A DNA stretch of 64,000 bases from Massilia varians (lineage in GTDB: Bacteria; Pseudomonadota; Gammaproteobacteria; Burkholderiales; Burkholderiaceae_D), in contig NZ_AP026966.1 in NCBI RefSeq assembly GCF_027923905.1, forward strand, positions 434,001 through 498,000, given 5' to 3'. Shown piece after piece: positions 35,789 through 57,783 of the stretch (positions are counted from its first letter, which is position 1; each line of letters starts with the position of its first letter). The notes below the pieces were generated by a model. The model saw only the letters and a program-made list of their open reading frames with translations, was not told where the DNA came from and searched no databases. The translations under genes were made by a program, and so were the position numbers.

Positions 35789-35802
35789 TGGAAACGTTAC
35801 CA
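35789..35802 (-). promoter_or_regulatory. LacI-type operator of the deacetylase-GH16 operon
   Basis: TGGTAACGTTTCCA on the minus strand, centred on the CG. It begins about seven bases downstream of the predicted start point of the promoter 35816-35845 and repeats exactly in front of the ABC binding-protein gene at 57728-57741. Confidence 0.75.
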
Positions 35803-35815
35803 GAATGTCAACCCG

Positions 35816-35845
35816 ACTATAGCACTGTAGATTTTTCAGTGTCAA
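35816..35845 (-). promoter_or_regulatory. Sigma-70 promoter of the deacetylase-GH16 operon
   Basis: Minus-strand TTGACA (35840-35845), 18-base spacer and TATAGT (35816-35821). The -35 is a perfect match. Same design as the ABC transporter promoter at 57755-57783, including the following TCGGG. Confidence 0.75.
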
Positions 35846-35956
35846 TTGCATCGCATCGGGCAAGATAGATCCGAACGGCGGCCGGGCTTCGCTCCTAAGC
35901 ATGGGCAATGTTGCAAATCAGCCGCAGTTCGCCTCATATCCACAAGAAATATTCCG

Positions 35957-35985
35957 TTGACAATTTTTTTTGCTAAGCCTAATAT
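35957..35985 (+). promoter_or_regulatory. Sigma-70 promoter of the TonB receptor gene
   Basis: TTGACA (35957-35962), 17-base spacer, TAATAT (35980-35985). The LacI-type operator at 35997-36016 follows immediately over the start point and leader, a standard repressible layout. Confidence 0.7.
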
Positions 35986-35996
35986 TCAAACAAGGT

Positions 35997-36016
35997 ATAT
36001 GGAAACGTTTCCATAT
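35997..36016 (+). promoter_or_regulatory. LacI-type operator of the TonB receptor gene
   Basis: ATATGGAAACGTTTCCATAT is a perfect 20-bp palindrome with the CG-centred core typical of LacI/GalR operators. It lies just downstream of the promoter at 35957-35985. Confidence 0.8.
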
Positions 36017-36312
36017 CTCTCACGTGATGACAGATGAACGAGCGCAGCGCGTATCGCTTTACCCGCTACCTGGCAGCGAGGACATCGGCACTGGCCGCAT
36101 GTCCTCGCTGTGCCGTCTGGTGGCAGGACGCGCCCTGCGGCCAGCACCGGCGCCCGGGGGGCGCCGCGGCGAGGATGTGCCCAGCGATAGGGACGGCAGC
36201 AGGGGCGACAGCAAGGACCGCCGGCGGCGCGCAGCCTGGATTGCGCCGGCACAGGTAGTGGAGACACCGTTGGATTGGGTGACGGTCATTTTAAAAAGAA
36301 CAGGAGAGCACC

Positions 36313-39300
36313 ATGTATTACCCCAAGGCTAAGCAGACATTGATGAGCCTGGCAGTCGCCAGCGCATGCGCGGCATTCATTCCGGCGCATGCCCAGGAAG
36401 CCGCCTCGACCCCCGGGGTTGCCAGCACCACCGCCGCGACCACCGACCCGGCAGCCCTGACCCCTCAGGAAGCCAGCACCCCATCCTCGCCGGCCGGCGT
36501 CCAGACCGTCGTCGTGACCGGCCTGCGCGCCAGCCTCGAATCCTCGATGGCCCTCAAGCGCAACGCGCAGGGCTTCGTCGACGGCATCGTCGCCGAAGAC
36601 ATCGGCAAGTTCCCCGACACCAACCTGGCCGAATCCTTGCAGCGCATCAGCGGCGTGTCGATCGACCGCAGCATCGGCGAAGGCTCGAAAGTCACCGTGC
36701 GCGGCGTCGGTCCCGACTTCAACCTGGTGCTGCTCAACGGCCGCCAGATGCCGACCTCGAACCTGGGCGACCGTCCGGGGCGCGCCTACGACTTCGCCAA
36801 CATCGCTTCCGAAGCGATCTCGCAGCTGCAGGTCTACAAGTCGGCCCGCGCCGAGACCCCGACCGGCGGCATCGGCGCCACCATCAACGTGCTGACCGCG
36901 CGTCCGCTGGCGCGTCCCGGCCTGCAGGCTAGCATCGGCGTCAAGGGCGTGCATGACCGCTCGGCCGAGAACCTGCCGGCAGACGTCAAGCGCGGCGGCA
37001 GCCTCACCCCGGAAGTGTCTGGCATCTACAGCAATACCTCGGCCGACGGCCGCTTCGGCATCGGCCTGTCGGCCAGCTACCAGGAACGCAACCTGGGCTA
37101 CAACGTGGCGTCCGTCGGCAACGGCTGGAAGGGCCCGTTCCGCGGCGACGAGAACAACTGGGGCACGATTCCCCAGCCAGGCACCGATGGTTCGGACCGC
37201 ATCACCAATCGTCCCGACCCGAGCGACCTGTACCAGGTTCCGCAGAACATGAACTACGCCATGAGCGGCATCCAGCGCCAGCGCACCAACGGCCAGCTGG
37301 TGTTCCAGTTCGCGCCGACCAAGGCTTTGACTACCACCCTCGACTATACGTACTCGGAAAACAAGATCCAGACCCGCCGCCAGGACGTGTCGGCCTGGTT
37401 CAACTTCGGCCCGTCCAGCAGCACCTGGACCGACGGCCCGGTCGCCGCGCCGCTGGTCTACACCGAACTGATCCCGACCAACAACAGCGACATCGCGATG
37501 GGCGGCGCCGACTTCGCCACCAAGACCCAGAACAAGTCGCTCGGCTTCAATGCCGCATGGCGCGTCAACAGCGACCTGCGTTTCGAGCTCGACGCCCACA
37601 AGTCGACCGCCGAATCCAAGCCCGACAGCCCCTGGGGCTCGTCCAACACCCTGGGCACCTCGAGCTTCAGCCGCGGCGACACCAGCGTCGACTTCTCGCA
37701 GGACCTGCCGGTCCTGAGCATCAAGGGCGCCGACTTCCAGCGCGCACCGCAGCAGGTCACCGGCTCGGTGTTCGAGAACGGCTACGTGAAGAGCGAAGTC
37801 AAGCAGGTCCAGACCCACGGCAGCTGGAAGATGCTGGAAGCCTCGGAGCTGAAGTTTGGCCTGGGCCATACCGACGTCAACAACCGTTCGGCCTTCTCGG
37901 TGCAGCAGCGCGACACCTGGGGCGGCGCCACCGTGGCGTCGGACTACCCGGCCAGCTACTTCCACCAGGAGAGCCTGCGCCAGTACTTCGACAACATCGA
38001 CGGCCACGACAACCCGAACCTGTTCAACACCTTCTACACCTTTGACTTCAACCAGCTGCGCGAGCTGGCCGCCAAGGCGTCCGGCCTGCCGGAGCTGTAC
38101 CGTCCGAAGACCGTCTACGACACCGACCAGCGCACCCGCGAGAAGTCCAAGAGCCTGTACCTGCAGTTCAACACTGACTGGGACTTCGCCATGCCGGTGC
38201 ACACCTCGGTCGGGGTGCGCTACGAGAAGACCGACATCACCTCGACCGCGCTGGTGCCGATCGCCACCCAGATCAGCTGGGTCTCGCAAAACGAATTCCC
38301 GGTGGCCTTCGGCGCACCGAACTTCACCACCCTGACCGGCAAGTACAAGCACGTGCTGCCGAGCTTCGACGCCGACATCGACCTGCGCTCGGACATGAAG
38401 GGCCGCTTCAGCTACGGCGAAACCATCGGCCGCGCACGCTATGACCAGCTGACCGGCGGCCAGGTGCTCGATACCCTGGCCCGTGTCGAGGGCGGCACCG
38501 GACGCCAGGGCAACCCGGGCCTGCTGCCGGTCAAGTCGAAGAACATCGACCTGGCCTGGGAGTGGTACTACAACAAGTCGAGCTTCGTCTCGCTCGGTCA
38601 CTTCCGCAAGCGCCTGGAGAATTACGCCGGCCAGTCGCAGGTCGTCGCCCAGCCCTTCAACCTGCGTACCCCCGTGGGCGGCACCTACTGGAATGCGGCG
38701 CTGGCGAACGGCTGCTCGAACGCGGACACCACCTGCATCCGCAACTACATCTTCCGCAACTTCGCCGGCCAGCCGGGCGTGACGCGCGGTGCGGACGACG
38801 CCTCGGGCAACGCCACCGGCACCATCGTCGGCCAGCCGAACGACCCGGTCGCCAACTTCAAGATCACCAGCTACTCGAACCAGAAGCAGGCGCGCCTGCG
38901 TGGCCTCGAGCTGAACGTGCAGCACATGTTCGGCAGCTCGGGCTTCGGCATCCAGGCCAACTACACCAAGGTGGATTCGGGCCTGCAGTACGATAATTCG
39001 AGCATCGGCGAGCAGTTCGCGCTGGTCGGCCTGAGCGACTCGGCCAACCTGGTGGGCATCTTCGAGAACGACAAGTGGAACGTGCGCGCGGCCTACAACT
39101 GGCGCGACAAGTTCCTGTCGTCGACCTTCGACGGCGCCGGCCCGAACCCGAACTACGTCGAGGCCTACGGCCAGCTGGACCTGAGCATCGGCTACAACGT
39201 GAGCAAGAACATCAGCGTCCAGTTCGAGGGCATCAACCTGACCGACGAGATCCGCCGCGTGCATGGCCGTAACGAACGCCAGGCGCTGTACGTGGAGCAG

Positions 39301-39342
39301 TCCGGTCCGCGCTACATGCTGTCGGCCCGTTACAAGTTCTAA
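36313..39342 (+). CDS. TonB-dependent receptor (Caulobacter-type, carbohydrate uptake)
   Basis: A 1009-residue outer-membrane receptor. A signal peptide ending PAHAQ is followed by an Ala/Thr/Pro-rich linker and QTVVVTGLRASLESS, a TonB-box-like element leading into the plug (FVDGIVAEDIGKFPDTNLAE, VTVRGVGPDFNLVLLNGRQM). The rest is a 22-strand barrel ending in an aromatic residue (YKF). Plug signatures fit the TIGR01782 group that imports oligosaccharides. Expression is controlled by the LacI-type operator upstream. AGGAGAG precedes the start. Likely ligand: beta-glucan oligosaccharides, from the surrounding GH16/GH1/GH3 genes. Confidence 0.92.
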   Translation: MYYPKAKQTLMSLAVASACAAFIPAHAQEAASTPGVASTTAATTDPAALTPQEASTPSSPAGVQTVVVTGLRASLESSMALKRNAQGFVDGIVAEDIGKFPDTNLAESLQRISGVSIDRSIGEGSKVTVRGVGPDFNLVLLNGRQMPTSNLGDRPGRAYDFANIASEAISQLQVYKSARAETPTGGIGATINVLTARPLARPGLQASIGVKGVHDRSAENLPADVKRGGSLTPEVSGIYSNTSADGRFGIGLSASYQERNLGYNVASVGNGWKGPFRGDENNWGTIPQPGTDGSDRITNRPDPSDLYQVPQNMNYAMSGIQRQRTNGQLVFQFAPTKALTTTLDYTYSENKIQTRRQDVSAWFNFGPSSSTWTDGPVAAPLVYTELIPTNNSDIAMGGADFATKTQNKSLGFNAAWRVNSDLRFELDAHKSTAESKPDSPWGSSNTLGTSSFSRGDTSVDFSQDLPVLSIKGADFQRAPQQVTGSVFENGYVKSEVKQVQTHGSWKMLEASELKFGLGHTDVNNRSAFSVQQRDTWGGATVASDYPASYFHQESLRQYFDNIDGHDNPNLFNTFYTFDFNQLRELAAKASGLPELYRPKTVYDTDQRTREKSKSLYLQFNTDWDFAMPVHTSVGVRYEKTDITSTALVPIATQISWVSQNEFPVAFGAPNFTTLTGKYKHVLPSFDADIDLRSDMKGRFSYGETIGRARYDQLTGGQVLDTLARVEGGTGRQGNPGLLPVKSKNIDLAWEWYYNKSSFVSLGHFRKRLENYAGQSQVVAQPFNLRTPVGGTYWNAALANGCSNADTTCIRNYIFRNFAGQPGVTRGADDASGNATGTIVGQPNDPVANFKITSYSNQKQARLRGLELNVQHMFGSSGFGIQANYTKVDSGLQYDNSSIGEQFALVGLSDSANLVGIFENDKWNVRAAYNWRDKFLSSTFDGAGPNPNYVEAYGQLDLSIGYNVSKNISVQFEGINLTDEIRRVHGRNERQALYVEQSGPRYMLSARYKF

Positions 39343-39389: not shown

Positions 39390-39443
39390 CTGCGTGCATT
39401 TTCAGGGTAGACTTGCCCGAATTAGTTTTTATTGAAAACAAAT

Positions 39444-41018
39444 ATGGCGAGCACCACCATCAGGCATGTCGTCATCGTGGGCGGCGGCTCGGCCGGCTGG
39501 CTGAGCGCCGCCGTCCTGGCATCGGGCTTCCAGGCGCTGGAGCATGGTGGCCTGCGCGTGACGCTGATCGAATCGCCCGATGTGCCGACCATCGGCGTGG
39601 GCGAGGGCACCTGGCCGACCATGCGCGACACCCTGCGCGCCGCCTGCCTGTCCGAGTCCAGCTTTTTCCGCGAATGCGACGCCGCCTTCAAGCAGGGCTC
39701 GCGCTTCAACCGCTGGGTCGATGGCGGCGATCGGGACTACTATTTCCACCCCTTCGTGCTGCCCCAGGGCTGGGGCGAGGCCGACATGGCCGGCCGCTGG
39801 CTCGAACGCCATACCGACATTCCCTTCGCCGACCTGGTGACATACCAGCCGCACCTGTGCGTGCACGGGCGCGCGCCCAAGCAGGCCGCCACGCCGGAAT
39901 TCGCGGCGGTGGCCAACTACGGCTACCACCTGGACGCCGGCAAGTTCGGCCTCTTTTTAAAGAAGCACTGCCTCGAACGCCTGGGTGTCCATTTTGTGGC
40001 GGACCACGTCACCGGCATCCTCTCACACGACAATGGCGACATCGCCGCCCTGCACACCAAGGCGCACGGCGCGCTGGCGGGCGACCTGTTCGTGGACTGC
40101 ACCGGCATGCAGTCGCTGCTGCTCGGGAAGCACTACGGCGTGCCCTTCATCCCGCAGCGCGGCGTCCTGTTCAACGACAGCGCGCTGGCGGTGCAGGTGC
40201 CTTACCCGGCGGAGAATGATCCGATCGCCTCGCAGACCACCTCCACCGCCCAGGAAGCCGGCTGGATCTGGGACATCGGCCTGCCGACCCGGCGCGGCAT
40301 CGGCCACGTGTATTCGAGCGCGCACACGAGCGACGAGCAGGCCGAACGCGCGCTGCGCGCCTACATCCGCGCCACCGGCGGCCCCGAAGAGATCGCGACG
40401 CCGCGCAAGCTGTCCTTCGAACCAGGCTACCGCGAGCGCTTCTGGCACCGCAACTGCGTCGCCATTGGCTTGTCCGCCGGCTTCATCGAGCCCCTGGAAG
40501 CCTCGGCGCTGGCCATGGTCGAGTTATCGAGCGCGATGCTGCTCGACGAGATGCCGGTCACGCGCGCGCAGATGGAGATCAGCGCGCGGCGCTTCAACGA
40601 GACCTTCACCTACCGCTGGGAGCGGGTGATCGACTTCCTGAAGCTGCACTACGTCCTGAGCCGCCGCGAGGGCACGATGGATCCGCATGGCTACTGGCGC
40701 GACAACCGGCGCGAGGAGACCATCCCGCAGCGCCTCGCCGACCTGCTGGCGCTGTGGCGCCACCGTCCGCCCTCGCGCTACGACTTCAACCGCATCCAGG
40801 AAGTCTTCCCGGCGGCCAGCTACCAGTATATTTTGTACGGGATGGGCTTCCTCCCGGAACCCGCCCAGGCCCGGCGCGAACGGATCGGGGAGGGCAATGG
40901 CGCCATGGCGGATGGCTTCTTGCGCCAGGCCGCCGACCTGACGCGCCGGATGCTGCCGGCGCTGCCGGACAACCGCGCGCTCATCGCGCACATCGTGCGC
41001 CATGGCTTGCCCACCTGA
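39444..41018 (+). CDS. Tryptophan 7-halogenase-family flavoprotein (first)
   Basis: A 524-residue FAD-dependent protein of the flavin-dependent halogenase superfamily: VVIVGGGSAGWLSAAVLASG at the N-terminus, VPTIGVGEGTWPTM, ECDAAFKQGSRFNRW (with the conserved Lys position), and the halogenase WxWxIP-like motif as GWIWDIGLPTRRG, where Asp-Ile-Gly-Leu-Pro deviates. GLSAGFIEPLEASALAM is the C-terminal FAD segment. Members of this family in TonB-receptor loci have no demonstrated halogenase substrate. No good ribosome-binding site is visible; a TTG at 39432 is the alternative start. Confidence 0.88.
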   Translation: MASTTIRHVVIVGGGSAGWLSAAVLASGFQALEHGGLRVTLIESPDVPTIGVGEGTWPTMRDTLRAACLSESSFFRECDAAFKQGSRFNRWVDGGDRDYYFHPFVLPQGWGEADMAGRWLERHTDIPFADLVTYQPHLCVHGRAPKQAATPEFAAVANYGYHLDAGKFGLFLKKHCLERLGVHFVADHVTGILSHDNGDIAALHTKAHGALAGDLFVDCTGMQSLLLGKHYGVPFIPQRGVLFNDSALAVQVPYPAENDPIASQTTSTAQEAGWIWDIGLPTRRGIGHVYSSAHTSDEQAERALRAYIRATGGPEEIATPRKLSFEPGYRERFWHRNCVAIGLSAGFIEPLEASALAMVELSSAMLLDEMPVTRAQMEISARRFNETFTYRWERVIDFLKLHYVLSRREGTMDPHGYWRDNRREETIPQRLADLLALWRHRPPSRYDFNRIQEVFPAASYQYILYGMGFLPEPAQARRERIGEGNGAMADGFLRQAADLTRRMLPALPDNRALIAHIVRHGLPT

Positions 41019-41055
41019 CCAGACAACGACAACGAGAAAGTGAAAGAGACATCCC

Positions 41056-41766
41056 ATGGCCAAGCCAGTACTGCTGAATAACATCGACCACAAGGACCTG
41101 CGCATCATTACCCGTCACGGCCGCGGCCTGGACGACAGCCACGCCTACGTGCAGACCTTCGCCGGCGAGTTCCGCCTCCTGCAAGCCCATTACCCGATCA
41201 TCTTCCGCAAGCAGAGCGAAGCCCATCCCTACGAGCCGGTCGCCCTGTTCGGTTTCGAGACCGACGAGAACCTGTTCCTGGAAGACGAGCGCTGGGACGC
41301 GCCCACGCTGCCGCTGCTGGTGGAGCGCCTGCCTTTCCTGATCGGCCGCGAAGGCGACGAACTGATGATCCACATCGACGTCGACAGCCCGCGCATCAGC
41401 ACCACGGAGGGCGAGCCGATCTTCCTGCCGCACGGCGGCATGAGCCCCTACCTCGAGCACGTCAATTCGATGCTGCTGACCATCCATGAAGGCATGGGTT
41501 CTAATGCAGCGTTCATCGAAGCGCTGGAAAAGCACGAACTGCTCGAAGGTTTCGCGCTCGACATCACCCTCGACGACGGCTCGCAGAACCGCCTGGCCGG
41601 CTTCTTCACCGTCAATGAGGAGCGCCTGGCCGCGCTGGACGGCGCGGCGCTCGACAGCCTGCACAAGGCCGGCTGGCTGTCCGCCATCTACTTCCAGATC
41701 GCGTCGCTGTCGAACTTCCGCGCGCTGATCGACCGCAAGAATGCCCGCCGTGCTGCCCGCGCCTAA
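41056..41766 (+). CDS. SapC-family protein
   Basis: A 236-residue protein matching the SapC family (LNNIDHKDLRI at the start, YPIIFRKQSEAHPYEPVALFG, FLEDERWDAPTLPLLVERLPFLI in part, and LAGFFTVNEERLAALDG). Homologues are encoded in the same four-gene module (halogenase, SapC, cupin, halogenase) beside TonB receptors in Caulobacter, Xanthomonas and Massilia. Its biochemical role is unknown; the name comes from an S-layer/peptide-resistance annotation that does not explain this context. Soluble, no signal peptide. The 3' end overlaps the cupin gene by 26 bases. Confidence 0.85.
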   Translation: MAKPVLLNNIDHKDLRIITRHGRGLDDSHAYVQTFAGEFRLLQAHYPIIFRKQSEAHPYEPVALFGFETDENLFLEDERWDAPTLPLLVERLPFLIGREGDELMIHIDVDSPRISTTEGEPIFLPHGGMSPYLEHVNSMLLTIHEGMGSNAAFIEALEKHELLEGFALDITLDDGSQNRLAGFFTVNEERLAALDGAALDSLHKAGWLSAIYFQIASLSNFRALIDRKNARRAARA

Positions 41767-42763
41767 AGCCATTCGCGAACTCGCCGGCCTGACGCCGCGC
41801 GACCTCGGCCCCGGCATTCTCGCATCCACCGAGCCGATCGTGCTGCGCGGCCTGGTCGCGGCCTGGCCCATGGTCCAGGCCGCGCGCCGCTCGGCGCTCG
41901 AGGCCGACGCCTACCTGCGCCGCTTCTATCAAGACGCCACCGTCAACGCGATGCTCGGCCCGCCCGAGATCGATGGCCGCTTCTTCTACAACGAGGCGAT
42001 GGACGGCTTCAACTTCGCCCCGGTGCGTGTGCGCCTGGACAAGGTGCTGGCCGAGCTGGAACGCTACCGCGGCGCCGCCAACCCGCCGGCGATCTACGTC
42101 GGCTCGACCACCATCGACACCTGCCTGCCCGGTTTCCACGACGAGAACCGCATCGACCTGGGCGGACGCGATGCGCTCGGTTCGATCTGGATCGGCAACC
42201 GCACCCGCATCGCCGCCCACTACGACCTGCCGGACAACCTGGCCTGCGTGGTGGCCGGACGGCGCCGCTTCACCCTGTTCCCGCCCAGCCAGGTCGAGAA
42301 CCTGTACATCGGCCCGCTCGACCTGACGCCGGCCGGCCAGGCCATCAGCCTGGTCGACTTCGTCAAGCCCGACCTGGCGCGCTTCCCGCGCTTCGCCACC
42401 GCGATGGAACATGCGCTGGCGGTCGAACTGGACCCGGGCGACGCGCTGTTCATCCCCAGCATGTGGTGGCACCACATCCAGGCGCTGGAAGACTTCAACG
42501 TGCTGGTGAATTACTGGTGGCGCCAGTCCCCCGACTACATGGACACGCCGATGAACGCGATGATGCACGCCTTGATGAGCGTGCGCGACCTGCCTTTGGC
42601 ACAGCGCAAGGCCTGGGCCGTGCTGTTCCGCCATTACGTGTTCGAGGCGGACGACGAGACCGTGGCCCACATCCCGCCGCATGCGCGCCGCGCCCTGGGT
42701 CCGATGGATGCCGACAGCGTGCGCAGCATCCGCGCCCAACTACTGAAAAGAATGAATCGCTGA
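41741..42763 (+). CDS. JmjC/cupin-like protein (cupin_8)
   Basis: A 340-residue protein with a cupin_8/JmjC-like fold: PIVLRGLVAAWPMVQAA at the start, HYDLPDNLACVVAGRRRFTLFPP containing the HxD iron-binding pair, and FIPSMWWHHIQALEDFNVLVNYWW with the distal His. The pattern predicts a 2-oxoglutarate/Fe(II)-type oxygenase, though the target is unknown. Its ATG lies inside the sapC gene, giving translational coupling; the halogenase gene follows 10 bases later. Confidence 0.85.
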   Translation: MPAVLPAPKAIRELAGLTPRDLGPGILASTEPIVLRGLVAAWPMVQAARRSALEADAYLRRFYQDATVNAMLGPPEIDGRFFYNEAMDGFNFAPVRVRLDKVLAELERYRGAANPPAIYVGSTTIDTCLPGFHDENRIDLGGRDALGSIWIGNRTRIAAHYDLPDNLACVVAGRRRFTLFPPSQVENLYIGPLDLTPAGQAISLVDFVKPDLARFPRFATAMEHALAVELDPGDALFIPSMWWHHIQALEDFNVLVNYWWRQSPDYMDTPMNAMMHALMSVRDLPLAQRKAWAVLFRHYVFEADDETVAHIPPHARRALGPMDADSVRSIRAQLLKRMNR

Positions 42764-42773
42764 GGAGGGAGAC

Positions 42774-44291
42774 ATGGAACAAGGACTGAACGGCATCGGC
42801 AAGCCGGTGCGGCGCGTCGTCATCGCGGGCGGCGGCACCGCCGGCTGGATGGCGGCCGCCTGCATCTCGAAGGTGCTGGGCAAGCGCCTCGACATCAAGC
42901 TGGTCGAGTCCGACGAGATCGGCACCGTGGGCGTGGGCGAGGCGACCATCCCGACCCTGCTGAACTTCCACAATCTCCTCGAGATCAACGAGCAGGAGTT
43001 CATGGCCGAGACCAAGGCCACCTTCAAGCTCGGGATCAGCTTCGAGAACTGGCGCAACGTGAACGAGGACTATATCCACTCGTTCGGCCTGACCGGCACC
43101 GACCACTGGACCGCCGGCTTCCAGCACTTCTGGCACAAGGGCCGCGAGCGCGGGCTGGCCGGCGACTACGGCGACTACTGCCTGGAGCTGCGCGCCGCGC
43201 AGGAGAACAAGTTCGCCCATCTGCCGCAGAATGGCAGGAACTTCGGCATGAACTACGCCTACCACCTCGATGCGAGCGCCTATGCGCGCTACCTGCGCAG
43301 GTTCAGCGAGCGCTTCGGCGTGCAGCGCATCGAAGGCAAGATCGTCGACGTGAGCACCAGCGCATTGAGCGGACAGGTGCGTTCGATCGCGCTCGATTCG
43401 GGCGCGGACATCGAGGGCGACCTGTTCATCGACTGCACCGGTTTTCGCGCGCTGCTGATCGGGCAGGCGCTCGGCGTCGGGTATGAAAACTGGTCGCAAT
43501 GGCTGTTCAACGACAGCGCGGCCGCGCTGCAGACCAGCTCGGTGGGCGATGCGGTCCCGCTCACGCGCTCGATCGCCCATCCCTTCGGCTGGCAATGGCG
43601 CATTCCGCTGCAGCACCGCGTCGGCAACGGCATCGTGTTCTCGAGCCGCTACGTGGAAGAGGGCGCGGCGATTCAAGCGCTGCTGGGGAATGTCGAAGGC
43701 GAGGCCCTGATGAAGCCGCGCGTGATTCGGTTCACGCCGGGCCAGCGGCGCCAGGTCTGGAAGAACAACGTGGTCGCGGTCGGCCTGTCGAGCGGCTTCC
43801 TCGAGCCGATCGAGTCGACCAGCATCCACCTGATCCAGCGCAGCATCATCCGCCTAATGCAGATGTTCCCGACCAGCGGCATCGTCCAGAGCGACGTCGA
43901 CGAGTTCAACCGCCAGGCCTGGGAAGAAGTGGAGAAGATCCGCGACTTCATCATCCTGCACTACAAGGTCAACAACCGGATCGATGCACCTTACTGGGAG
44001 GACGCGCGCAACATGGAAGTGCCGGCCTCGCTCCAGCACCGCATCGACCTGTTCCGCGAGACCGGGCGCGTGTTCCGCGTCGCGAACGAGCTGTTCGCCG
44101 AGAACTCGTGGACCCAGGTGATGCTGGGGCAGGGCATCATGCCTTACCGGCACCACCAGTCGGCCGACCTGATGGGCGACGAGGAGCTGTCGCACTTCCT
44201 CGGTGCGATCAAGGGGCAGATCGACCGCACCGTGGCCGGCCTGCCCTCGCACCAGTCCTACGTGGAGCGTTACTGCGCGACGCCAAAGTAG
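42774..44291 (+). CDS. Tryptophan halogenase-family flavoprotein (second)
   Basis: A 505-residue paralogue of the protein at 39444-41018. FAD loop VVIAGGGTAGWMAAACISK, then GTVGVGEATIPTLLNFH, KATFKLGISFENW with the conserved lysine, the complete halogenase motif HPFGWQWRIPLQHRVGNG, and GLSSGFLEPIESTSIHLI. The WxWxIP motif is intact here, in contrast to the first copy, so this one is the better candidate for a real flavin-dependent halogenase. GAGGAGGGAGAC precedes the start. It ends the four-gene module. Confidence 0.9.
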   Translation: MEQGLNGIGKPVRRVVIAGGGTAGWMAAACISKVLGKRLDIKLVESDEIGTVGVGEATIPTLLNFHNLLEINEQEFMAETKATFKLGISFENWRNVNEDYIHSFGLTGTDHWTAGFQHFWHKGRERGLAGDYGDYCLELRAAQENKFAHLPQNGRNFGMNYAYHLDASAYARYLRRFSERFGVQRIEGKIVDVSTSALSGQVRSIALDSGADIEGDLFIDCTGFRALLIGQALGVGYENWSQWLFNDSAAALQTSSVGDAVPLTRSIAHPFGWQWRIPLQHRVGNGIVFSSRYVEEGAAIQALLGNVEGEALMKPRVIRFTPGQRRQVWKNNVVAVGLSSGFLEPIESTSIHLIQRSIIRLMQMFPTSGIVQSDVDEFNRQAWEEVEKIRDFIILHYKVNNRIDAPYWEDARNMEVPASLQHRIDLFRETGRVFRVANELFAENSWTQVMLGQGIMPYRHHQSADLMGDEELSHFLGAIKGQIDRTVAGLPSHQSYVERYCATPK

Positions 44292-46200: not shown

Positions 46201-46214
46201 GGGAGGGCCGGCGC

Positions 46215-47525: not shown

Positions 47526-47536
47526 GGGGTCTCCGT

Positions 47537-48483
47537 TTATTGCAGGGTCGCGATATGGTCCGACAGCATCGCGGATACGCCGCGCAGCGCCGGGTACTGC
47601 TCGGTAATCAGGTAGGTCGGGATGCGGGCGAGGTAAGGACCGAGACGTCCCTTGTCCTCGAAGCGTGCGCGGAAAGCCGATTCGGTGAACAGTTTACCAA
47701 GCCTTGGCACGATGCCGCCACCAATATACATGCCGCCGGTCGCGCCCAGGGTCAGCGCGACGTTGCCCGCCACGCTCCCCAGCACCGCGCAGAAGATCCC
47801 GACCGTCTTGACGCAGTCGGCGCAACTGCCGTCGATCGCGGCCCTGGTGATGCCCGCGGCGTCAAGGCGCCGGCCGCTCGAGACCCGGTGGATCAGCTCC
47901 AGCCCCATGCCCGACAGCAGGCGCTCGGCCGACACGTGGCCGTATTCCGCCCACAGCGCTTCCAGGATCGCCACTTCCTCCTTCGTCGACGGCGCGAAGC
48001 TCACGTGGCCGCCTTCGCCGGCCAGGGCGATCCAGCGCTCGCCCGCTGGGATCACGCCCGATACGCCGAGGCCCGTGCCGGGGCCGATCAGGCCGATCGG
48101 CCGGTTCTGTAGTTCGATGCCGCCGCCGATGCGCTCGCGCCCCTCGGCCGCCAGGTGCGGCAGCGACATCGCCAGCGCGGCGAAGTCGTTCACCACCAGC
48201 AGGGTTTCCAGGCCTTGCCGGCGGCGCAGCTCCTCGATCGAGAAGCTCCAGTGGTGGTTGGTCATGCTGACCCGGTCTTCCTCGACCGGGTTGGCGATCG
48301 CCAGCGCCGCGTGGCGCACGCGCTCCACCGCCAGCCCGCGGCCGGCCGCCTGGCCGAGGTAGGCCCGCATGGCCTCGTCCAGGGTCGGATAATCGGCGCA
48401 GGCCAGCACTTCGACATCAATCACACCCGCGTCCGACTCCAGTGCGAAGCGGGCGTTGGTGCCGCCGATGTCGGCCAGCAGCT

Positions 48484-48487
<4 letters not shown>
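47537..48487 (-). CDS. glk: Glucokinase
   Basis: A 316-residue bacterial glucokinase (Glk family): [16 protein letters not shown] with the phosphate loop, [38 protein letters not shown] and [14 protein letters not shown]. It phosphorylates glucose for the Entner-Doudoroff/pentose pathways. The start overlaps the GH3 stop by four bases (ATGA), so it is translationally coupled. Confidence 0.95.
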
Positions 48488-50973
<2,486 letters not shown>

Positions 50974-51006: not shown

Positions 51007-52377
51007 TTATTCGCCGCGCAGGAAGGAACGGTACCACTTGCCGCTGCCCTTCAGGCGGCGCTGCTGGCTTGCGTAATCGATGTAGGTGAGGCCGAAGCGC
51101 TTCAGGTAGCCTTCGGCCCATTCGAAGTTGTCGAGCAGGCTCCAGGCGAAGTAGCCCTTGACCGGCACGCCATCCTTGATGGCCGCGTTCAGGGCGGCCA
51201 GGTGGCGCATCAGGTAGTGGCGGCGCTCGACGTCGTCGATCTCGCCGTCCGCGCCCACTTCGTCGGCATAGCAGGAACCGTTTTCGGTGACGTACATCGG
51301 GCCCGGACGGTAGTCGTTCTCGATGCGCAGCAGGAGTTCGGCCAGGCCCTGCGGCGCCACTTCCCAGCCCATGTAGGTGGTCTCCACGCCGGGCGCGGGC
51401 GGCAGCACGCGCGCCGACAGCGGCCCATGGCCGGGGGCATGCTCGATGGTCTCGGGGAAGTAGTAGTTCACGCCGAGGAAGTCGGTTGGCACCGCGATGG
51501 CCTCGAGGTCGCCCGGCAGCACGACGGGGGCGGCGTCGCCGATCGTCTCCAGGATCGCCTGCGGGTAGCCGCGGCCGTAGAGCGGATCGAGGAACCAGCG
51601 GTAGCGCAGGCCGTCGTGGCGTTCGGTGGCGGCGATGTCCTCGAGCTGGCTGGAAGCGGGGCGCACCGGATGCAGGCTCAGGGCGAGTCCGGTCCTGGCA
51701 TGTGCGACGTTCGCGCGGATCAGCGGCACCGCCTTGCCGTGCGAGAGCAGCACGTGGTGCGCCACCTGCAGCGCGGTCTTGAAGTCGGTATTGCCCGGCG
51801 CGTGCCAGCCTTCGTAGTTGCCGATGATGGCCGTGCACCAGGGTTCGTTGTGGGTGATCCAGTGCTGCACGCGGTCGCCCAGGCGGCGCGTCACCGCATC
51901 GACGAACGCCAGGTAGGCGTCGACGGTGGCGCGGTTGTTCCAGCCGCCGCGGTCCTGCAGGTACTGCGGCAGGTCCCAGTGGTAGAGCGTGGCCCAGGGC
52001 TGCAGGCCGCGTTCTAGCATGCCGTCCACCAGGCGCGAATAAAAATCCAGGCCTTTCTCGTTCGGCTTGCCGCCCACTTCGGAAAAGATGCGCGGCCAGG
52101 CGATCGAGAAGCGGTAGGCGTTCAGTCCCATGTCGCGGCCGATGTCGAAGTCTTCCGGCCAACGGTGGTAGTGGTCGCAGGCGACCGATCCGTTGGAGCC
52201 GTCCTTGATGTTCCCCGGCGTGGCGGCGAAGCGGTCCCAGATCGATTCGACCCGGCCGTCTTCCCGGCCGGCGCCTTCGATCTGGTACGAGGAGGTGGCG
52301 CAGCCCCACAAGAAGTCGGGGGCGAAATCGCCGCGCGATGGGGCGCTCGGCTCGGGACGGGATGCTGTTGTCGTCAT
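51007..52377 (-). CDS. GH1 beta-glucosidase
   Basis: A 456-residue cytosolic beta-glucosidase. Markers: FLWGCATSSYQIEGA at the N-terminus, the acid/base motif HWITHNEPWCTAIIGNY and the nucleophile motif MYVTENGSC near residue 355, plus NFEWAEGYLKRFGL at the end. Hydrolyses beta-linked gluco-oligosaccharides such as cellobiose or laminaribiose. First gene of the GH1-GH3-glk-transporter operon and controlled by the operator at 52413-52428. Confidence 0.94.
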   Translation of the reverse strand: MTTTASRPEPSAPSRGDFAPDFLWGCATSSYQIEGAGREDGRVESIWDRFAATPGNIKDGSNGSVACDHYHRWPEDFDIGRDMGLNAYRFSIAWPRIFSEVGGKPNEKGLDFYSRLVDGMLERGLQPWATLYHWDLPQYLQDRGGWNNRATVDAYLAFVDAVTRRLGDRVQHWITHNEPWCTAIIGNYEGWHAPGNTDFKTALQVAHHVLLSHGKAVPLIRANVAHARTGLALSLHPVRPASSQLEDIAATERHDGLRYRWFLDPLYGRGYPQAILETIGDAAPVVLPGDLEAIAVPTDFLGVNYYFPETIEHAPGHGPLSARVLPPAPGVETTYMGWEVAPQGLAELLLRIENDYRPGPMYVTENGSCYADEVGADGEIDDVERRHYLMRHLAALNAAIKDGVPVKGYFAWSLLDNFEWAEGYLKRFGLTYIDYASQQRRLKGSGKWYRSFLRGE

Positions 52378-52405: not shown

Positions 52406-52434
52406 AGGATATTTGGAAAGCTTTCCAATTGCAA
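52406..52434 (-). promoter_or_regulatory. GH1 operon promoter with LacI-type operator in the spacer
   Basis: Minus-strand TTGCAA (52429-52434), 17-base spacer, TATCCT (52406-52411). The spacer contains TTGGAAAGCTTTCCAA (52413-52428), a perfect 16-bp palindrome of the LacI type whose centre is GC where the other three operators have CG. A bound repressor here would block RNA polymerase directly. Confidence 0.7.
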
Positions 52435-52437
52435 TCT

Positions 52438-52460
52438 AAAAAAAAGGCCGGCGGGCGGCC
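52438..52460 (-). terminator. Terminator after the LacI regulator gene
   Basis: Minus strand GGCCG-CCCGC-CGGCC then about eight T, four bases after the stop codon at 52464. Read-through would enter the GH1 promoter. Confidence 0.8.
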
Positions 52461-52463
52461 CTC

Positions 52464-53525
52464 TTATTTTTTTCTGCCGCGCGTGCGGCCGGCGGGGCTG
52501 TCGCCGCCCGAGCTCTCGCTCGGGCCCTTGGCCAGCGAGGCGCGCAGCGTCACGCTCACCGGGAAAGTGCGGGCCACCGGGCGCTGCAGGTCGTAGCAGC
52601 GGTTGAGCAGGGCGTTCAGGCCGTTGAGCGTCATCTCGCGCCAGGGCATGTGCACGGAGGTCAGGCGCGGGGCCGAGAACGCGGCGCTCGGGGTGTCGTC
52701 GTAGCCGATCACCGACAGGTCGCGCGGCACGCTGATGCCGGCTTCCTGGAAGTAGGCCAGCGCGCCCACCGCCATCTCGTCGTTGGCGCAGAACAGGGCG
52801 GTGCACCTGGTGCCGGAATCGACCAGCGCCTTGGCCGCCGACCAGCCGCCCTGGGGCGAGAAGTCGCTTTCCATCATCCAGACCTTCTTGGTGTCGATGC
52901 CCTGGGCTTGCAGCTCGCGCATGAAGCCGTCGATGCGGGCCACGTTGTCGGCCAGCGCCGCCGGGCCGGCAATCACGGCGATGTCGCGGTGCTTGTAGTC
53001 GAGCAGGGTGCGCGCGGCCAGGCGCCCGCCCAGCGCGTGGTCGACCGTGAAGCACTGCTCGGGGATCTGCTTGAATTCGTGGTTCAGTGCGACGATCTGC
53101 TTCTGCTTGCCGCCCAGGGCAGCGAGGTCCTCGTCGCTGAGGGCGCCGGTCATCATGACGATGCCGTCGCAGCCGCGTTCGATCAGGAACTCGATGCCCT
53201 CGATGGCCTGGCGCCGCGCGTCGCCCAGGCCGACGCCGAAGGCCACCACCATGTGCAGGCCGGCGGCGCGCAGCTCGGTGTCGATGATCTGCAGGATCGG
53301 GGTGTAGAAGGTGCCGCTCAGGACCGGGATGTAGACGCCCACCATGCGGCTGGTGCCGGACAGCAGGGCGCGCGCCGCGTGCGAGGGGCGAAAGCCCAGC
53401 TCGTCGATCGCCTTGCGCACGCGTTCCAGCGTGGCCGGCGACACCGAGCCCTTGCCGCTGACCACGCGCGAGGCGGTGCCGAGCCCGACGCCGGCGAGAC
53501 GCGCTACGTCCTTGATGGTTGCCAC
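52464..53525 (-). CDS. LacI/GalR-family repressor of the beta-glucan regulon
   Basis: A 353-residue regulator with an N-terminal HTH (IKDVARLAGVGLGTASRVVS, residues 4-23) and hinge helix (AARALLSGTSRMVGVYIPVL), a periplasmic-binding-protein-like effector domain, and a basic C-terminal tail (RTRGRKK). It begins with GTG after AGGGAT. It sits between the ABC importer operon and the GH1 operon and is the only LacI gene in the window, so it is the natural candidate for the four operators. Effector probably a short beta-glucoside or glucose, by analogy. Confidence 0.92.
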   Translation of the reverse strand: MATIKDVARLAGVGLGTASRVVSGKGSVSPATLERVRKAIDELGFRPSHAARALLSGTSRMVGVYIPVLSGTFYTPILQIIDTELRAAGLHMVVAFGVGLGDARRQAIEGIEFLIERGCDGIVMMTGALSDEDLAALGGKQKQIVALNHEFKQIPEQCFTVDHALGGRLAARTLLDYKHRDIAVIAGPAALADNVARIDGFMRELQAQGIDTKKVWMMESDFSPQGGWSAAKALVDSGTRCTALFCANDEMAVGALAYFQEAGISVPRDLSVIGYDDTPSAAFSAPRLTSVHMPWREMTLNGLNALLNRCYDLQRPVARTFPVSVTLRASLAKGPSESSGGDSPAGRTRGRKK

Positions 53526-53602: not shown

Positions 53603-54679
53603 TTAAAGGCGCCGGCCGCTGCTTGGGTCGAACAGCGAGACCCGCGCCGCGTCGACGTCGAAGCGCACCGTCTGCCCGCTTGCCAGCGGCCGCGGATCGT
53701 GCACGATGCTGGAAAGCTGGCGGCCGCCGCAGTCCAGCCAGACGACCTGGTGGTTGCCCATCGGTTCCACCAGCGTCACGCTGGCCTGGAGGGAGCCGTC
53801 CGGCACCAGGTGGATGTCTTCCGGCCGCACCGCCAGCGTCACCGTGCCAGGCGCGGCCACGCAGTCCGGCGCCAGGTTCAGGGCCAGCATGCCCGCAGTG
53901 AAGCGGCGCCTGGTCTTGTCCACCCCGTCCACTTCTTCCTCGAGCCGGCCGTCGACGAAGTTCATCGACGGCGCGCCGAGAAAACCCGCCACGAAGCGGT
54001 TGGCCGGACGCTCGTAGACCTCGCTTGGCGTGCCGATCTGCTGGATGCGGCCGCCTTCCATCACGACGATGCGGGTGGCCAGGGTCATCGCCTCGGCCTG
54101 GTCGTGGGTCACGTAGATCATGGTCGAGCCGAGCGCCGCGTGCAGCAGCTTGAGTTCGCGGCGCAGCTCGGCGCGCAGCTTGGCGTCCAGGTTCGAGAGC
54201 GGCTCGTCGAACAGGTAGACGCCGGCTTCGCGCACCAGGGCGCGGCCGATCGCCACGCGCTGGCGCTGGCCGCCGGAGAGCTGGGCCGGTTTACGGTCCA
54301 GCAGCGACTCCAGTTGCAGCATCTCGGCCGTCTTGCGCACCCGGCGTTCGATTTCCGCCTTGGGAGCGCCGGAAATACGCAGGCCGAAGGACATGTTCTT
54401 CTCGACCGTCATGGTCGGGTACAGCGCATAGGACTGGAACACCATGCCGATCCCGCGCTCGCTCGGGTCGGCATGGCTCATATCGACCCCGCCGATCTCG
54501 ATCGCGCCCTCGGCCAGGTCGATCAGGCCGGCGATGCTGTGCAACAGCGTGGACTTGCCGCAGCCCGAAGGGCCGAGCAGGACCAGGAACTCGCCCGGCT
54601 CGACCTGCAGGTCGAGGTCGCGGATGACCTGGTTGCTGCCGCGGGTGATGCACAGCTTGCGGAGGTGGACGTTCGACAT
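53603..54679 (-). CDS. ABC sugar importer ATPase (UgpC/MsmK-type)
   Basis: A 358-residue ATPase: Walker A LGPSGCGKSTLLHSIAG, signature LSGGQRQRVAIGRAL, Walker B VYLFDEPLSNLDA, the H-loop MIYVTHDQAEAMT, and a C-terminal OB/TOBE regulatory domain to residue 358. Works with two permeases and a binding protein encoded just upstream to import oligosaccharides of the CUT1 class. Follows permease 2 by 12 bases. Confidence 0.93.
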   Translation of the reverse strand: MSNVHLRKLCITRGSNQVIRDLDLQVEPGEFLVLLGPSGCGKSTLLHSIAGLIDLAEGAIEIGGVDMSHADPSERGIGMVFQSYALYPTMTVEKNMSFGLRISGAPKAEIERRVRKTAEMLQLESLLDRKPAQLSGGQRQRVAIGRALVREAGVYLFDEPLSNLDAKLRAELRRELKLLHAALGSTMIYVTHDQAEAMTLATRIVVMEGGRIQQIGTPSEVYERPANRFVAGFLGAPSMNFVDGRLEEEVDGVDKTRRRFTAGMLALNLAPDCVAAPGTVTLAVRPEDIHLVPDGSLQASVTLVEPMGNHQVVWLDCGGRQLSSIVHDPRPLASGQTVRFDVDAARVSLFDPSSGRRL

Positions 54680-54691: not shown

Positions 54692-55588
54692 TTAGCCTTT
54701 CACCGCGCCGGCGGCGATGCCGCGCACGAACCAGCGGCCCGAGATGAAATAGATCGCCAGCGGCACGCTTGCCGTCAGGATGGTCGCGGCCATGTTGACG
54801 TTGTACAGGCGGGTGCCAGTGGTGGTATTGATCACGTTATTCAGCTGCACCGTCATCGGCGCATTGTCGCGGCCCGCGAACACCAGGCCGAGGATGTAGT
54901 CGTTCCACACGCCGGTGACCTGCATGATGGCGGCGACCACCACGATGGGCAGCGACATCGGCAGCATCACCTGCAGGAAGATACGCCAGAAGCCGCCGCC
55001 GTCGATGCGCGCGGCCTGGAAAAGCTCGTGCGGCACCGAGGCATAGTAATTCCGGAACAGCAGGGTCATGATCGGCATGCCGAAGATGACGTGCACCAGC
55101 ACGATGGCCGGCAGCGAACCGAACACGCCGGCGCGCGCCATCATCCACACCAGCGGGTAGATCATCACCTGCACCGGAATGAAGGCGCCGGCCAGCAGCA
55201 CGCCGAACAGCACATTCGCGCCGCGCGGGCGCCAGAACGACAGCGCGTAGCCGTTGATGGCGCCCAGCAGGATCGGGATCACGGTGCTCGGCACCGCGAT
55301 CGCCACCGAATTCCAGAAGCCGCCGCTGACCTGGCTCCAGGCATTACGCCAGGGCTCGACGGTCACCAGGAGGGGCAGGGCGAACACGTTGCCATTGCGA
55401 ATCTCGTCCATCGACTTGAAGGAGGTGATGATCATGACGTACAGCGGCAGCAGGAAGTACAGCGCGGCGCTGAACAGGAAGGCGTAGACGCCGATGCGCG
55501 CCGGCGACAGGCGCCTGCGGCGCGCCGCCGTCTTCATCGATTCGCGTGGCAGCACGGGGACCGCTGGCTGCAGGACGGTATGGCTCAT
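54692..55588 (-). CDS. ABC sugar importer permease 2 (MalG-like)
   Basis: A 298-residue membrane protein with six helices. MSHTVLQPAVPVL starts it; the EAA-loop is VPHELFQAARIDGGGFWRIFLQVMLPMSLP (in parts: PHELFQAARIDGGGFWR). The C-terminus GRWFVRGIAAGAVKG is the typical MalG end. The ATG overlaps the preceding permease stop by four bases. Confidence 0.92.
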   Translation of the reverse strand: MSHTVLQPAVPVLPRESMKTAARRRRLSPARIGVYAFLFSAALYFLLPLYVMIITSFKSMDEIRNGNVFALPLLVTVEPWRNAWSQVSGGFWNSVAIAVPSTVIPILLGAINGYALSFWRPRGANVLFGVLLAGAFIPVQVMIYPLVWMMARAGVFGSLPAIVLVHVIFGMPIMTLLFRNYYASVPHELFQAARIDGGGFWRIFLQVMLPMSLPIVVVAAIMQVTGVWNDYILGLVFAGRDNAPMTVQLNNVINTTTGTRLYNVNMAATILTASVPLAIYFISGRWFVRGIAAGAVKG

Positions 55589-56424
55589 GCGCGTTGCCTC
55601 CGGCTGCGTGCATAGGCATACGGCGCCAGCAGGGCCAGCACCGGGATCAGGAGGGTGACGGCGCCGGCCGAGGCCAGGCCGATGTTCGAGCGCAGGAACA
55701 AATGGTCCATGATGAACTTGGCCGGCACCTCGCTGGCCGTGCCCGGTCCGCCGCCGGTCATGGCGACCACCGCGTCGTACAGCTTCACGACGGCGGTGCA
55801 CAGCAGCAGGAACACGGTGGCGATGGTGGGCCCCAGCATCGGCAGCACGATCTCTAGGTAAACCCGCCAGGCCGGGATGCCGTCCAGGCGCGCCGCCTTG
55901 TAGATTTCCGGATCGACGCCGCGCAGCCCGGCCAGCATCAGCGCCATCACCAGGCCCGAGGCCTGCCAGACGGCGGCGATGACGATGGTGTAGATGACCA
56001 TCTCCTGGTCGACGATCCAGTCGAGGCCCAAGCCGGCGCCAGGCGCCAGCATCCACTGCCACACCAGGCCGGTGGCGACGAAGGACATCGCATACGGGTA
56101 CAGGAAGACCGTACGCAGGAAGCCTTCGCCGCTGACGTTCTGGTCGATGAAGGCGGCCAGCAGGAAGCCGAGCACCATGCAGGCGACGATGAACAGCGCG
56201 CCGTACACGGCCAGGTTGTTCAGCGAGATCAGCCAGCGCTCGTTGTCGAACAGGCGCAGGTATTGCGCGGCGCCGATATAGGTATCCGACGGAAAGGTGC
56301 GCGAAGCGGTGAACGAGGTGCGCAGGGTCCACAGCGCCGCGCCGATGTAGGCGACCAGCACCGTCAGGGCCATCGGCAAGAGCGCAACGTGGGGACTGAA
56401 TCGATGGGCGCGCAGGGTCGGCAT
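55585..56424 (-). CDS. ABC sugar importer permease 1 (MalF-like)
   Basis: A 279-residue permease with six hydrophobic segments; start MPTLRAHRFSPHVALL. The EAA loop is RGVDPEIYKAARLDGIPAWRVYLEI (in part GVDPEIYKAARLDGIP). An alternative longer frame overlaps the binding-protein gene and is rejected. It follows the binding-protein stop by six bases. Confidence 0.92.
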   Translation of the reverse strand: MPTLRAHRFSPHVALLPMALTVLVAYIGAALWTLRTSFTASRTFPSDTYIGAAQYLRLFDNERWLISLNNLAVYGALFIVACMVLGFLLAAFIDQNVSGEGFLRTVFLYPYAMSFVATGLVWQWMLAPGAGLGLDWIVDQEMVIYTIVIAAVWQASGLVMALMLAGLRGVDPEIYKAARLDGIPAWRVYLEIVLPMLGPTIATVFLLLCTAVVKLYDAVVAMTGGGPGTASEVPAKFIMDHLFLRSNIGLASAGAVTLLIPVLALLAPYAYARSRRQRA

Positions 56425-56429
56425 GGCGG

Positions 56430-57693
56430 TCAGTATTTGAGGGCGTTGGCGATGCTCTTCTGGGCGCGTTCGACCGGCATGCCGGTGTTCCAGTAGGCGG
56501 TCAGGACGTCCTGCATGGCGCCGTTCTGGTCCGGCGTCAGGTAGACCTCGGTGACGCCGGCCTGGCGCGCGCGGTCCTTCATGATCTCGATGCCCTTCTG
56601 CGCGCACAGGTCGAGTTGCGCCGCATCGACGTCATGGCGCACGGGAATCGAGCCTTTCAGCTTGCTGAACGCCACCTGCAGGCCCGGTTGCGACACCACA
56701 TTGGCGAGCAGCTGCTGCGCCTTGACGGCCTGGCCCTGGTCGGTGCGCGGGAAAACGAACACGTCGCCCTGGATCAGGTAGGGCGTGGCCGCGCTGAAGC
56801 CGGCCATGCAGCCGTAGTGCCGGCCCGCGACCTGCTTTGCGTTGGTGAACTCGCCCTTGGCCCAGTCCCCCATCACCTGGAAGCCCGCCTTGCCACTGAT
56901 GACCAGGGCGGTGGCGTCGTTCCAGTTGCGCCCCGGCGCGCCGGCATCGACATAGGATTTCAGGCGCTTGAAGGCCGGCAGCACATCGCGGAACTGCGGC
57001 GAGAGCAGGGTGGCCTGGTCGCGGTCGCGCATGGCCTTGAGGTACAGCTCCTTGCCGCCCATGTTGGCCAGGATCGCCGAGAACAGCACGGTCTCCTGCC
57101 ACGACTGGCCGCCGTGGGCCAGGGGGATGAGGCCGGCGGCCTTGAGCTTGTCGAGCGCGGCGAAGAATTCAGGCATGCTGCCCGGCTCTTTTGCGATGCC
57201 GGCCTTCTGGAAGGCGGCCTTCGAATACCAGAACCAGGTCTGCATGTGGATGTTCAGCGGCACCGCGTAGTAGTGACCCTGCACCTTGATCACGTCGATG
57301 ATCGGGGGGGGGCAGCAGCCGGTCCCAGTTCTGGGCGCGCGCGAGGCCGTCGACGTTATTGAGCATCCCCGCTTCGATCACGTCGAGGAACTGCTTGGAG
57401 GTGTTGAACTGTGCCGCGGTGGGCGGATTGCCGCCGACGATGCGGTTGATGGTCACGGCGCGCGACTGGTCGCCGCCGGCGATCGCGGTGTCGATCCACA
57501 CGCCGCCGGCATCGCGGTAAGCCTGGGCGACCTGCTTGACCGCGGCCGATTCGCCGCCCGAGGTCCACCAGTGGATGACTTCGGCCCTGGGCGCGGCAGC
57601 CGCCGACGCGGCATGCGCCGGGGCGGCAGGCGTCATGGCGAGGCCGAACCATGCGCATGCGCAGGCTGTCGCCAGGGTGCGTGGTGTGAACAT
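56430..57693 (-). pseudogene. ABC sugar-binding protein, frameshifted at a G9 tract
   Basis: A CUT1-type extracellular solute-binding protein of about 420 residues split across two frames. The first part (from ATG 57693) has a signal peptide (TPAAPAHAAS) and EVIHWWTSGGESAAVKQVA; the second part encodes KVQGHYYAVPLNIHMQTWFW, QSWQETVLFSAILANMGG and the C-terminal lobe to the stop at 56430. The frame changes inside a run of nine G (57304-57312; C9 on the coding strand), where eight would keep the frame. Either phase variation, a mutation or a sequencing artefact. Downstream permease genes look intact. Confidence 0.82.
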
Positions 57694-57727
57694 CGTGTCT
57701 CCGTGTATGCCGTTATTGTGGGTAAGT

Positions 57728-57741
57728 TGGAAACGTTACCA
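57728..57741 (-). promoter_or_regulatory. LacI-type operator of the ABC importer operon
   Basis: TGGTAACGTTTCCA on the minus strand, identical to the site at 35789-35802. It lies about seven bases past the predicted start point of the promoter at 57755-57783. Confidence 0.78.
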
Positions 57742-57754
57742 TCGGCTTTGCCCG

Positions 57755-57783
57755 ACTATAGCACCGGGTGAAATCAGGGTCAA
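57755..57783 (-). promoter_or_regulatory. Sigma-70 promoter of the ABC importer operon
   Basis: Minus strand TTGACC (57778-57783), 17-base spacer, TATAGT (57755-57760), followed by TCGGG as at the deacetylase promoter. Confidence 0.72.

Follow-up and report, generated by a model that had tools for sequence, protein, structure and literature searches.

What protein reads the LacI-type palindromes scattered among beta-glucan genes in Massilia varians, a member of a genus of environmental bacteria, and for which sugar? The question arises from a 64,000-nucleotide stretch of contig NZ_AP026966.1 (positions 434,001 to 498,000, here the window, to whose numbering unlabeled coordinates refer), in which the initial annotation had noted four operators, on the promoters of a deacetylase/GH16, an ATP-binding cassette (ABC) importer, a TonB receptor and a GH1-GH3-glk operon, and one LacI gene proposed to control them. 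Our comparison of sequences makes it very likely that the LacI-type protein encoded at 52464-53525 is the local repressor of the ABC, deacetylase/GH16, TonB and GH1-GH3-glk-MFS promoters (MFS, major facilitator superfamily), and probably acts on a fifth site.

Operators and promoters in the window

All four palindromes were recovered exactly, in letters and position, as annotated. Operators O1 (57728-57741, minus strand; 13 nt downstream of the -10 element of the ABC operon) and O2 (35789-35802, minus strand; preceding the polysaccharide deacetylase/GH16 genes) share the sequence TGGTAACGTTTCCA. Operator O3 (core TGGAAACGTTTCCA, 36000-36013, plus strand; full palindrome ATATGGAAACGTTTCCATAT, 35997-36016) precedes the TonB receptor operon at a distance of 211 bp from O2, and operator O4 (TTGGAAAGCTTTCCAA, 52413-52428, minus strand) has a GC centre and lies within the -35/-10 spacer of the GH1 promoter. 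A scan of the window's own contig (5,575,375 bases, a 5.58-Mb genome) with the degenerate pattern TGGWAASSTTWCCA returned four matches, all of them O1 to O4, and none for the reversed pattern used as control. The genome scan that the annotation had proposed as a check thus yielded the four window operators only, a result far beyond chance.

Allowing one mismatch added three places in the genome, and again none in the control. One of these, a candidate fifth operator at 57892-57905 (plus strand; TGGTATGGTTTCCA), is located 164 bp from O1 and 47 bp before a Na+/H+ exchanger gene. Among ten relatives examined, counterparts occur in three (G014, G030 and G045) at a spacing of 172-174 bp, adjoining the exchanger gene in G014 and G045 and not in G030; the site is missing in G005 and G010 despite the presence of the exchanger gene, and no counterpart was found in G002, G008, G042, G048 or G054. 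Hence the annotation's count of four holds for exact sites, and five operators are more likely, 57892-57905 being a probable fifth, weaker and of narrow distribution, that the annotation had missed. The other one-mismatch matches, at genome positions 4784808 and 2514556, are weak and were not taken as regulon members.

The claim that each operator sits on a sigma-70 promoter was borne out by a consensus scan at three of the four: the ABC promoter (57755-57783, minus strand; TTGACC-17-TATAGT, 10/12), the deacetylase promoter (35816-35845, minus strand; TTGACA-18-TATAGT, 11/12) and the TonB promoter (35957-35985, plus strand; TTGACA-17-TAATAT, 10/12), with gaps of 13, 13 and 14 bp, respectively, between the -10 element and the operator. 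The GH1 promoter (TTGCAA-17-TATCCT, with O4 filling the spacer) falls below consensus, scoring 8/12 by hand count; it was not picked up by the consensus scan, and in the alignment its -10 element is not kept in G005, G010 and G008. The two identical operators do share a promoter design, as had been noted, with GTGCTATAGTCGGG and the 13-nt gap in both and spacers of 18 and 17.

A LacI-type candidate regulator that tracks the operators

The one LacI gene annotated among the targets was confirmed at 52464-53525 on the minus strand, where it starts with GTG, closes the ABC operon and encodes a protein of 353 amino acids with a LacI helix-turn-helix (PF00356, 60.1 bits) and a Peripla_BP-like sensor domain (PF13377, 112 bits), both above cut-off. 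Its recognition-helix stretch, AGVGLGTASRVVSGKG, is kept in close orthologs and differs from those of the three further LacI-type proteins encoded in this genome. The hinge segment of LacI-family proteins carries a leucine that inserts into the DNA; here the hinge, ARALLSGT, aligns with ARSLKVNH of PurR.

We searched 62 genomes of the genus Massilia for this protein and for the operator pattern, and obtained 250 sites (3 with the reversed control). Of the 62 genomes, 53 encode a LacI relative with an identity of 69% or more, and all 53 contain sites; none of the nine genomes without such a relative does, site and regulator thus agreeing in 62/62 genomes, whose lineages are not independent. In the nine, the best LacI match has an E-value of 5e-49 and, where listed, an identity of at most 37%. 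A similar distribution was seen among 80 loci of a named collection, where sites are present in the flanks (approximately 10 kb) of 21 of the 23 loci whose regulator has an identity of 66% or more and in 2 of the 57 (L149 and L150) with a more distant one. Stronger evidence than the 53/9 co-occurrence is provided by three genomes (G014, G042 and G048) in which the ortholog of the window's regulator is the only LacI-type helix-turn-helix gene genome-wide, and which contain 4, 6 and 4 sites, respectively.

Alignment of the window with ten relatives (11 sequences; 10 for the deacetylase site, which is absent from G048), selected already knowing that regulator and sites were present, revealed that the 14-bp operator cores are invariant within each class while the flanks drift, an invariance that is partly by construction, since only exact matches to the degenerate pattern had been used as sites and the classes were defined by centre, symmetry and position. 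With the exception of GH1, the promoters show their -35, -10 and operator elements as islands of identity across 10-11 species. Independently of how sites were picked, each operator form adjoins the same gene in every aligned relative. In the aligned genomes the asymmetric form TGGTAACG-TTTCCA points the same way relative to its gene at both the deacetylase and the ABC site; GH30 genes (12/12), one GH5 gene and one second binding-protein gene share this orientation, which is reversed at one TonB site. The comparison with close relatives that the annotation had suggested is therefore favorable on both counts, with sites that track the regulator and stand out in alignments.

Several observations weigh against control of all these genes by this one protein. 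A second LacI paralog (62-72% identity), absent from this genome, is present in many relatives, where it may share the sites; its recognition helix is near-identical, and G024, G047, G056 and G059 have a LacI only at 69-72% identity, within the range of this paralog. The nine regulator-less genomes also lack a GH1 ortholog (best identity around 50%, or weak partial matches), and the co-occurrence therefore partly reflects the whole locus coming and going. Two of the 23 close-regulator loci, L126 and L133, show no exact site in their flanks. The GH1 operator is GC- rather than CG-centred, and its promoter is weak. The GH16 and sugar-binding protein frames are broken in this assembly. Finally, exact sites in all four places, as read from coordinates, are found in only 21 of the 45 relatives with listed places (G002-G012, G014, G015, G017, G018, G020-G028, G030-G032, G034, G036-G040, G042-G048 and G050-G054, those of G054 in part; G055-G061 have counts only), and G004, G015, G018, G022 and G032 are among those in which TonB and GH1 alone still have a site. 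The proposal of a regulon under one LacI protein is thus supported by the joint comparison of motif, regulator and targets, with all four places retained in about half of the listed relatives.

With regard to the second paralog, the G047 stretch that carries it (L113) has the motif at binding-protein, GH1 and TonB genes, and no exact site was found in the stretches carrying it in four other genomes (L109-L112).

Variation at the operator centre

All four window operators are even palindromes, centred on CG at three sites and on GC at O4. According to the 2014 survey of the LacI family (PMC4052901), even palindromes are found for 1251 of 1303 transcription factors, with a CG consensus centre reported for 1173, a different one for 49 and a degenerate one for 29; tolerance at the centre is therefore uncommon but described. 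Across the genus, operator centres are CG, GC or GG/CC, and versions centred on A or T number 3 in the 62 genomes, against 5 in the reversed control.

The fact that GC is not the usual LacI-family centre in that survey, together with the difference between the GH1 site and the other three, could speak for two regulators, the window's LacI reading CG-centred sites and another protein the GC-centred GH1 site. We judge such a division very unlikely, given that G014, G042 and G048, with their single LacI-type gene, hold both kinds of site, and that centres mix at a single target: laminarinase promoters are centred on CG in 16 of 34 cases and on GG or CC in 18, and the GH1 site, GC in most listed relatives, is GG in G006 and G037.

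Predicted mode of control

The sites, their conservation, the genes and the co-occurrence are read from sequence, and from them we infer binding, sign of control, effector and enzyme locations. Under control by a single LacI-type repressor, the protein would bind the 14-bp palindrome TGG(A/T)AA-SS-TT(A/T)CCA (S = C or G), blocking initiation or promoter escape when bound 13-14 bp after the -10 element at three promoters and covering the spacer at the GH1 promoter. Position by itself is no proof of repression, and the sites could instead serve an activator or a protein of a different family with LacI-like palindromes. We deem this extremely improbable, as the operator follows the -10 element at three promoters and falls within the spacer at the fourth, positions at which RNA polymerase is normally obstructed by a bound protein, and as site presence tracks the LacI gene across the 62 genomes.

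The repressor probably governs its own synthesis. The consensus scan detected no sigma-70-like promoter between malK and lacI, and lacI is therefore probably transcribed from the ABC promoter; placed at the end of the ABC operon, it would limit its own level through probable autoregulation via O1. A terminator-like stem-loop (52441-52465, minus strand) separates lacI from the GH1 promoter. Three such structures were observed in the scanned region, against 2.7 expected from shuffles, and the stronger argument for this one is its conservation, with stem and T run visible in the ten aligned relatives. Release of the repressor would be brought about by a product of beta-1,3-glucan breakdown, putatively laminaribiose, gentiobiose or glucose.

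Genes under the operators

The operon read from O1 (minus strand) encodes an ABC sugar-binding protein (56430-57693), a MalF-like permease (55585-56430), a MalG-like permease (54692-55570) and a MalK-like ATPase (53603-54679), followed by lacI. The binding-protein gene is frameshifted at a run of nine C (57304-57312). Its two parts share one frame in 10/10 relatives, judging by offsets, and no nine-C run is present at that position in the eight relatives printed there; because of the run, a sequencing error is possible, as is a real loss. The G042 copy of the protein is closest to entries for the binding protein component of an ABC sugar transporter, and then to a glucose-binding protein, which suggests that the system takes up glucose rather than oligosaccharides.

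From O4, also on the minus strand, are read a GH1 beta-glucosidase (51007-52377; Pfam, and NCBIfam TIGR03356 above cut-off), a GH3 enzyme with an ExoP-type C-terminal domain (48484-50973), whose nearest solved relative is an exo-1,3/1,4-beta-glucanase, a glucokinase (47537-48487; NCBIfam) and, as the last gene, an MFS transporter (46215-47525; Pfam). An open reading frame on the plus strand at 45987-47615 was taken to be an opposite-strand shadow of the transporter gene.

Downstream of O2 (minus strand) lie a polysaccharide deacetylase-like gene (34860-35771; PF01522) and a GH16 gene (34028-34843) split by an in-frame TAA at 34463-34465, the frame being open in all 9 of the 10 relatives examined in which the gene was found. 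An alternative GH16 frame at 33774-34736 (minus strand) has no Pfam match and was rejected in favor of 34028-34843. The plus-strand operon read from O3 encodes a TonB-dependent receptor of the TonB-Xanth-Caul type (36313-39342), followed at 39432-44291 by Trp_halogenase-like, SapC, Cupin_8 and Trp_halogenase-like genes (Pfam). This operon thus places two tryptophan-halogenase-like flavoproteins alongside SapC and Cupin_8 genes, and a literature search found no paper combining at least three of TonB, tryptophan halogenase, SapC and Cupin_8.

Joint control of surface uptake, cleavage, import and phosphorylation, as the annotation had envisaged, is in keeping with the TonB, GH1-GH3 and glk genes; the MFS gene had been missed, and the interruption of the GH16 and sugar-binding protein genes means that secreted cleavage and ABC import may fail in this strain. 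In the predicted pathway, secreted GH16, GH30 or GH5 enzymes, where present, would degrade the glucan, TonB-dependent uptake would follow, GH3 and/or GH1 would release glucose, and this would be imported by the glucose-type ABC system and the MFS protein and phosphorylated by glucokinase. Elsewhere in the window, a tRNA gene at 62391-62463 (minus strand) is the only Rfam match at gathering threshold.

Predicted wider regulon and substrate

In 63 further stretches we located 88 exact sites, 82 at gene starts of listed glucan or uptake families (GH16-CBM56, 58; GH30, 12; GH3, 4; TonB, 4; GH1, 2; GH5, 1; binding protein, 1) and 6 left unassigned. These assignments used a fixed reference protein set, leaving room for other enzymes at the six remaining sites. 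Scored loci supplied the references for GH16-CBM56, GH30 and GH5 (L096, L101 and L106), a second reference for TonB was taken from L113, and these are self-matches; some of the 88 sites are or may be main-cluster sites (e.g. GH1 and GH3 in L211, TonB in L207 and L215), and the GH16-CBM56 loci were found via their operators, leaving operator-free laminarinase genes uncounted. Four of the six remaining sites (L099:9699, L208:2973, L232:3013 and L241:3015), in four genomes, lie before genes that by eye seem to encode one and the same small secreted product (MFANLLR..., 206 amino acids in L232 and L241).

Among solved proteins, GH16 laminarinases and endo-beta-1,3-glucanases come nearest to the GH16-CBM56 proteins. 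The further sites on beta-glucan enzymes and the nearest solved relatives of the GH16-CBM56, GH3 and sugar-binding proteins thus narrow the beta-glucan of the initial annotation to beta-1,3(1,6)-glucan, with glucose as a likely imported sugar. The window's genome has no GH16-CBM56 gene, the sole match, at 38% identity, being the interrupted GH16 gene that follows the deacetylase gene.

A regulon for cellulose or cellobiose would also accommodate some of these genes: GH1 and GH3 enzymes often accept cellobiose, the relative of the GH3 protein is an exo-1,3/1,4-glucanase, and a GH5 gene assigned to the Pfam family Cellulase follows one of the G006 sites. With 58 of the 88 further sites on GH16-CBM56 genes nearest to laminarinases and 12 on GH30 genes, we consider this substrate unlikely and retain beta-1,3(1,6)-glucan.

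Paired operators at laminarinase genes

At the GH16-CBM56 genes, the operator tends to occur twice. An exact promoter operator is present in 34 of the 37 loci read, and an exact operator in the first codons in 21 of those 34 and in 3 more loci; L096:9345-9524 provides an example of such a pair. In 11 of the 37 loci a partner with one or two mismatches occupies the expected place (9 intragenic, 2 in the promoter), and among the 37 no partner was found in L205, L224, L234 or L235, and in L237 only one with three mismatches.

Read in frame, the intragenic site encodes W-K-(P/A)-F. Of 32 tabulated stretches, five (those with GGT) are the promoter operator read in frame, leaving 27, in which proline is encoded by CCT in 19/20, alanine by GCT in 7/7 and lysine by AAA in 25/27 cases, against 2.9%, 3.1% and 16.9% for the same codons elsewhere in these frames; exact intragenic matches fix these letters by the pattern itself, and a fairer figure therefore comes from loci found via the promoter operator alone. 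Thirteen loci have the promoter operator in exact form and lack an exact intragenic site; a W-K-P-F stretch occurs in 8 of them, its proline codon being CCT in six (L108, L196, L198, L203, L227 and L238) and CCG in L104 and L226, and its lysine codon AAA in four of the eight.

Laminarinase operator spacings fall into classes of approximately 146, 154, 165.5, 170 and 178 bp, 11 of the 32 spacings relying on a partner site with one or two mismatches, and those of the deacetylase-TonB pair, in 24 genomes, into classes of approximately 155, 166, 199 and 210 bp. For the nine classes, grouped after the fact and excluding the fifth-site spacing (164 bp in the window, 172-174 bp in relatives), class-level Rayleigh P values are 0.32 at a period of 10 bp, 0.012 at 10.5, 0.004 at 10.75, 0.005 at 11 and 0.045 at 11.5; Rayleigh values for individual spacings are raised by the relatedness of the genomes and are likewise high at periods from 9 to 12 bp. 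At the class level, spacing thus fits a helical repeat of 10.5-11 bp, which is suggestive of possible looping. The Lac repressor of E. coli carries a C-terminal leucine-rich helix for tetramerization; the C-terminus of the window's protein, GPSESSGGDSPAGRTRGRKK, contains no leucine repeat, and hence no Lac-type tetramerization helix was recognized in it.

These patterns allow a tentative and rather doubtful extension of the repressor's role: a protein that tolerates CG, GC and GG/CC centres and rejects A/T ones might rank its genes by choice of centre, largely fixed per target, and might loop the laminarinase promoter to the operator in the signal-peptide codons, perhaps also joining the deacetylase and TonB sites, without a tetramer helix. 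In the figures given by the 2014 survey (PMC4052901), intragenic positions account for less than 1% of sites.

Comparison with known systems

Literature searches found no described laminarin regulator of Massilia. The present analysis assigns a predicted regulator, operator and pathway in this genus, with a motif specific enough to find beta-glucan enzymes genome by genome, and the 250 genus-wide sites offer a natural experiment on how strict the need for a central CG is and on intragenic second operators.

The LacI-family autorepressor GlyR3 of Clostridium thermocellum, which controls the celC-glyR3-licA operon and is released by laminaribiose, belongs to a Gram-positive host and reads another operator, TGAACGCGCGTACA (PMC5483248). 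As described in that report, its intragenic site (manB) is weak, lies in a different gene and does not pair with an operator at that gene's promoter. Also related are the Caulobacterales regulators described in the 2014 survey (PMC4052901), in which the LacI-type BglR1-3 are predicted to control beta-glucoside operons and the LacI-type GluR glycolytic genes including glk, with beta-glucosides and/or glucose as proposed effectors; they belong to a lineage different from Massilia, and the likeness is one of description.

The Bgl pathway of Shewanella, as described in PMC2996990, is likewise under a LacI-type local regulator, BglR. Its layout recurs here, where sites attributed to a LacI-type regulator precede genes for a TonB receptor, a beta-glucosidase, glucose uptake and a glucose kinase. 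Compared with that regulon as described, the Massilia locus has a GH1-GH3-glk-MFS operon, an ABC operon carrying lacI and a TonB operon that also contains halogenase-like, SapC and cupin genes; relatives add GH16-CBM56, GH30 and GH5 enzymes. The sole Shewanella locus among the 80 examined, whose regulator is 32% identical, has no site. Taken together, the predicted Massilia regulon resembles the BglR regulons of Shewanella and the Caulobacterales, and represents a well-supported prediction of a design of known type.

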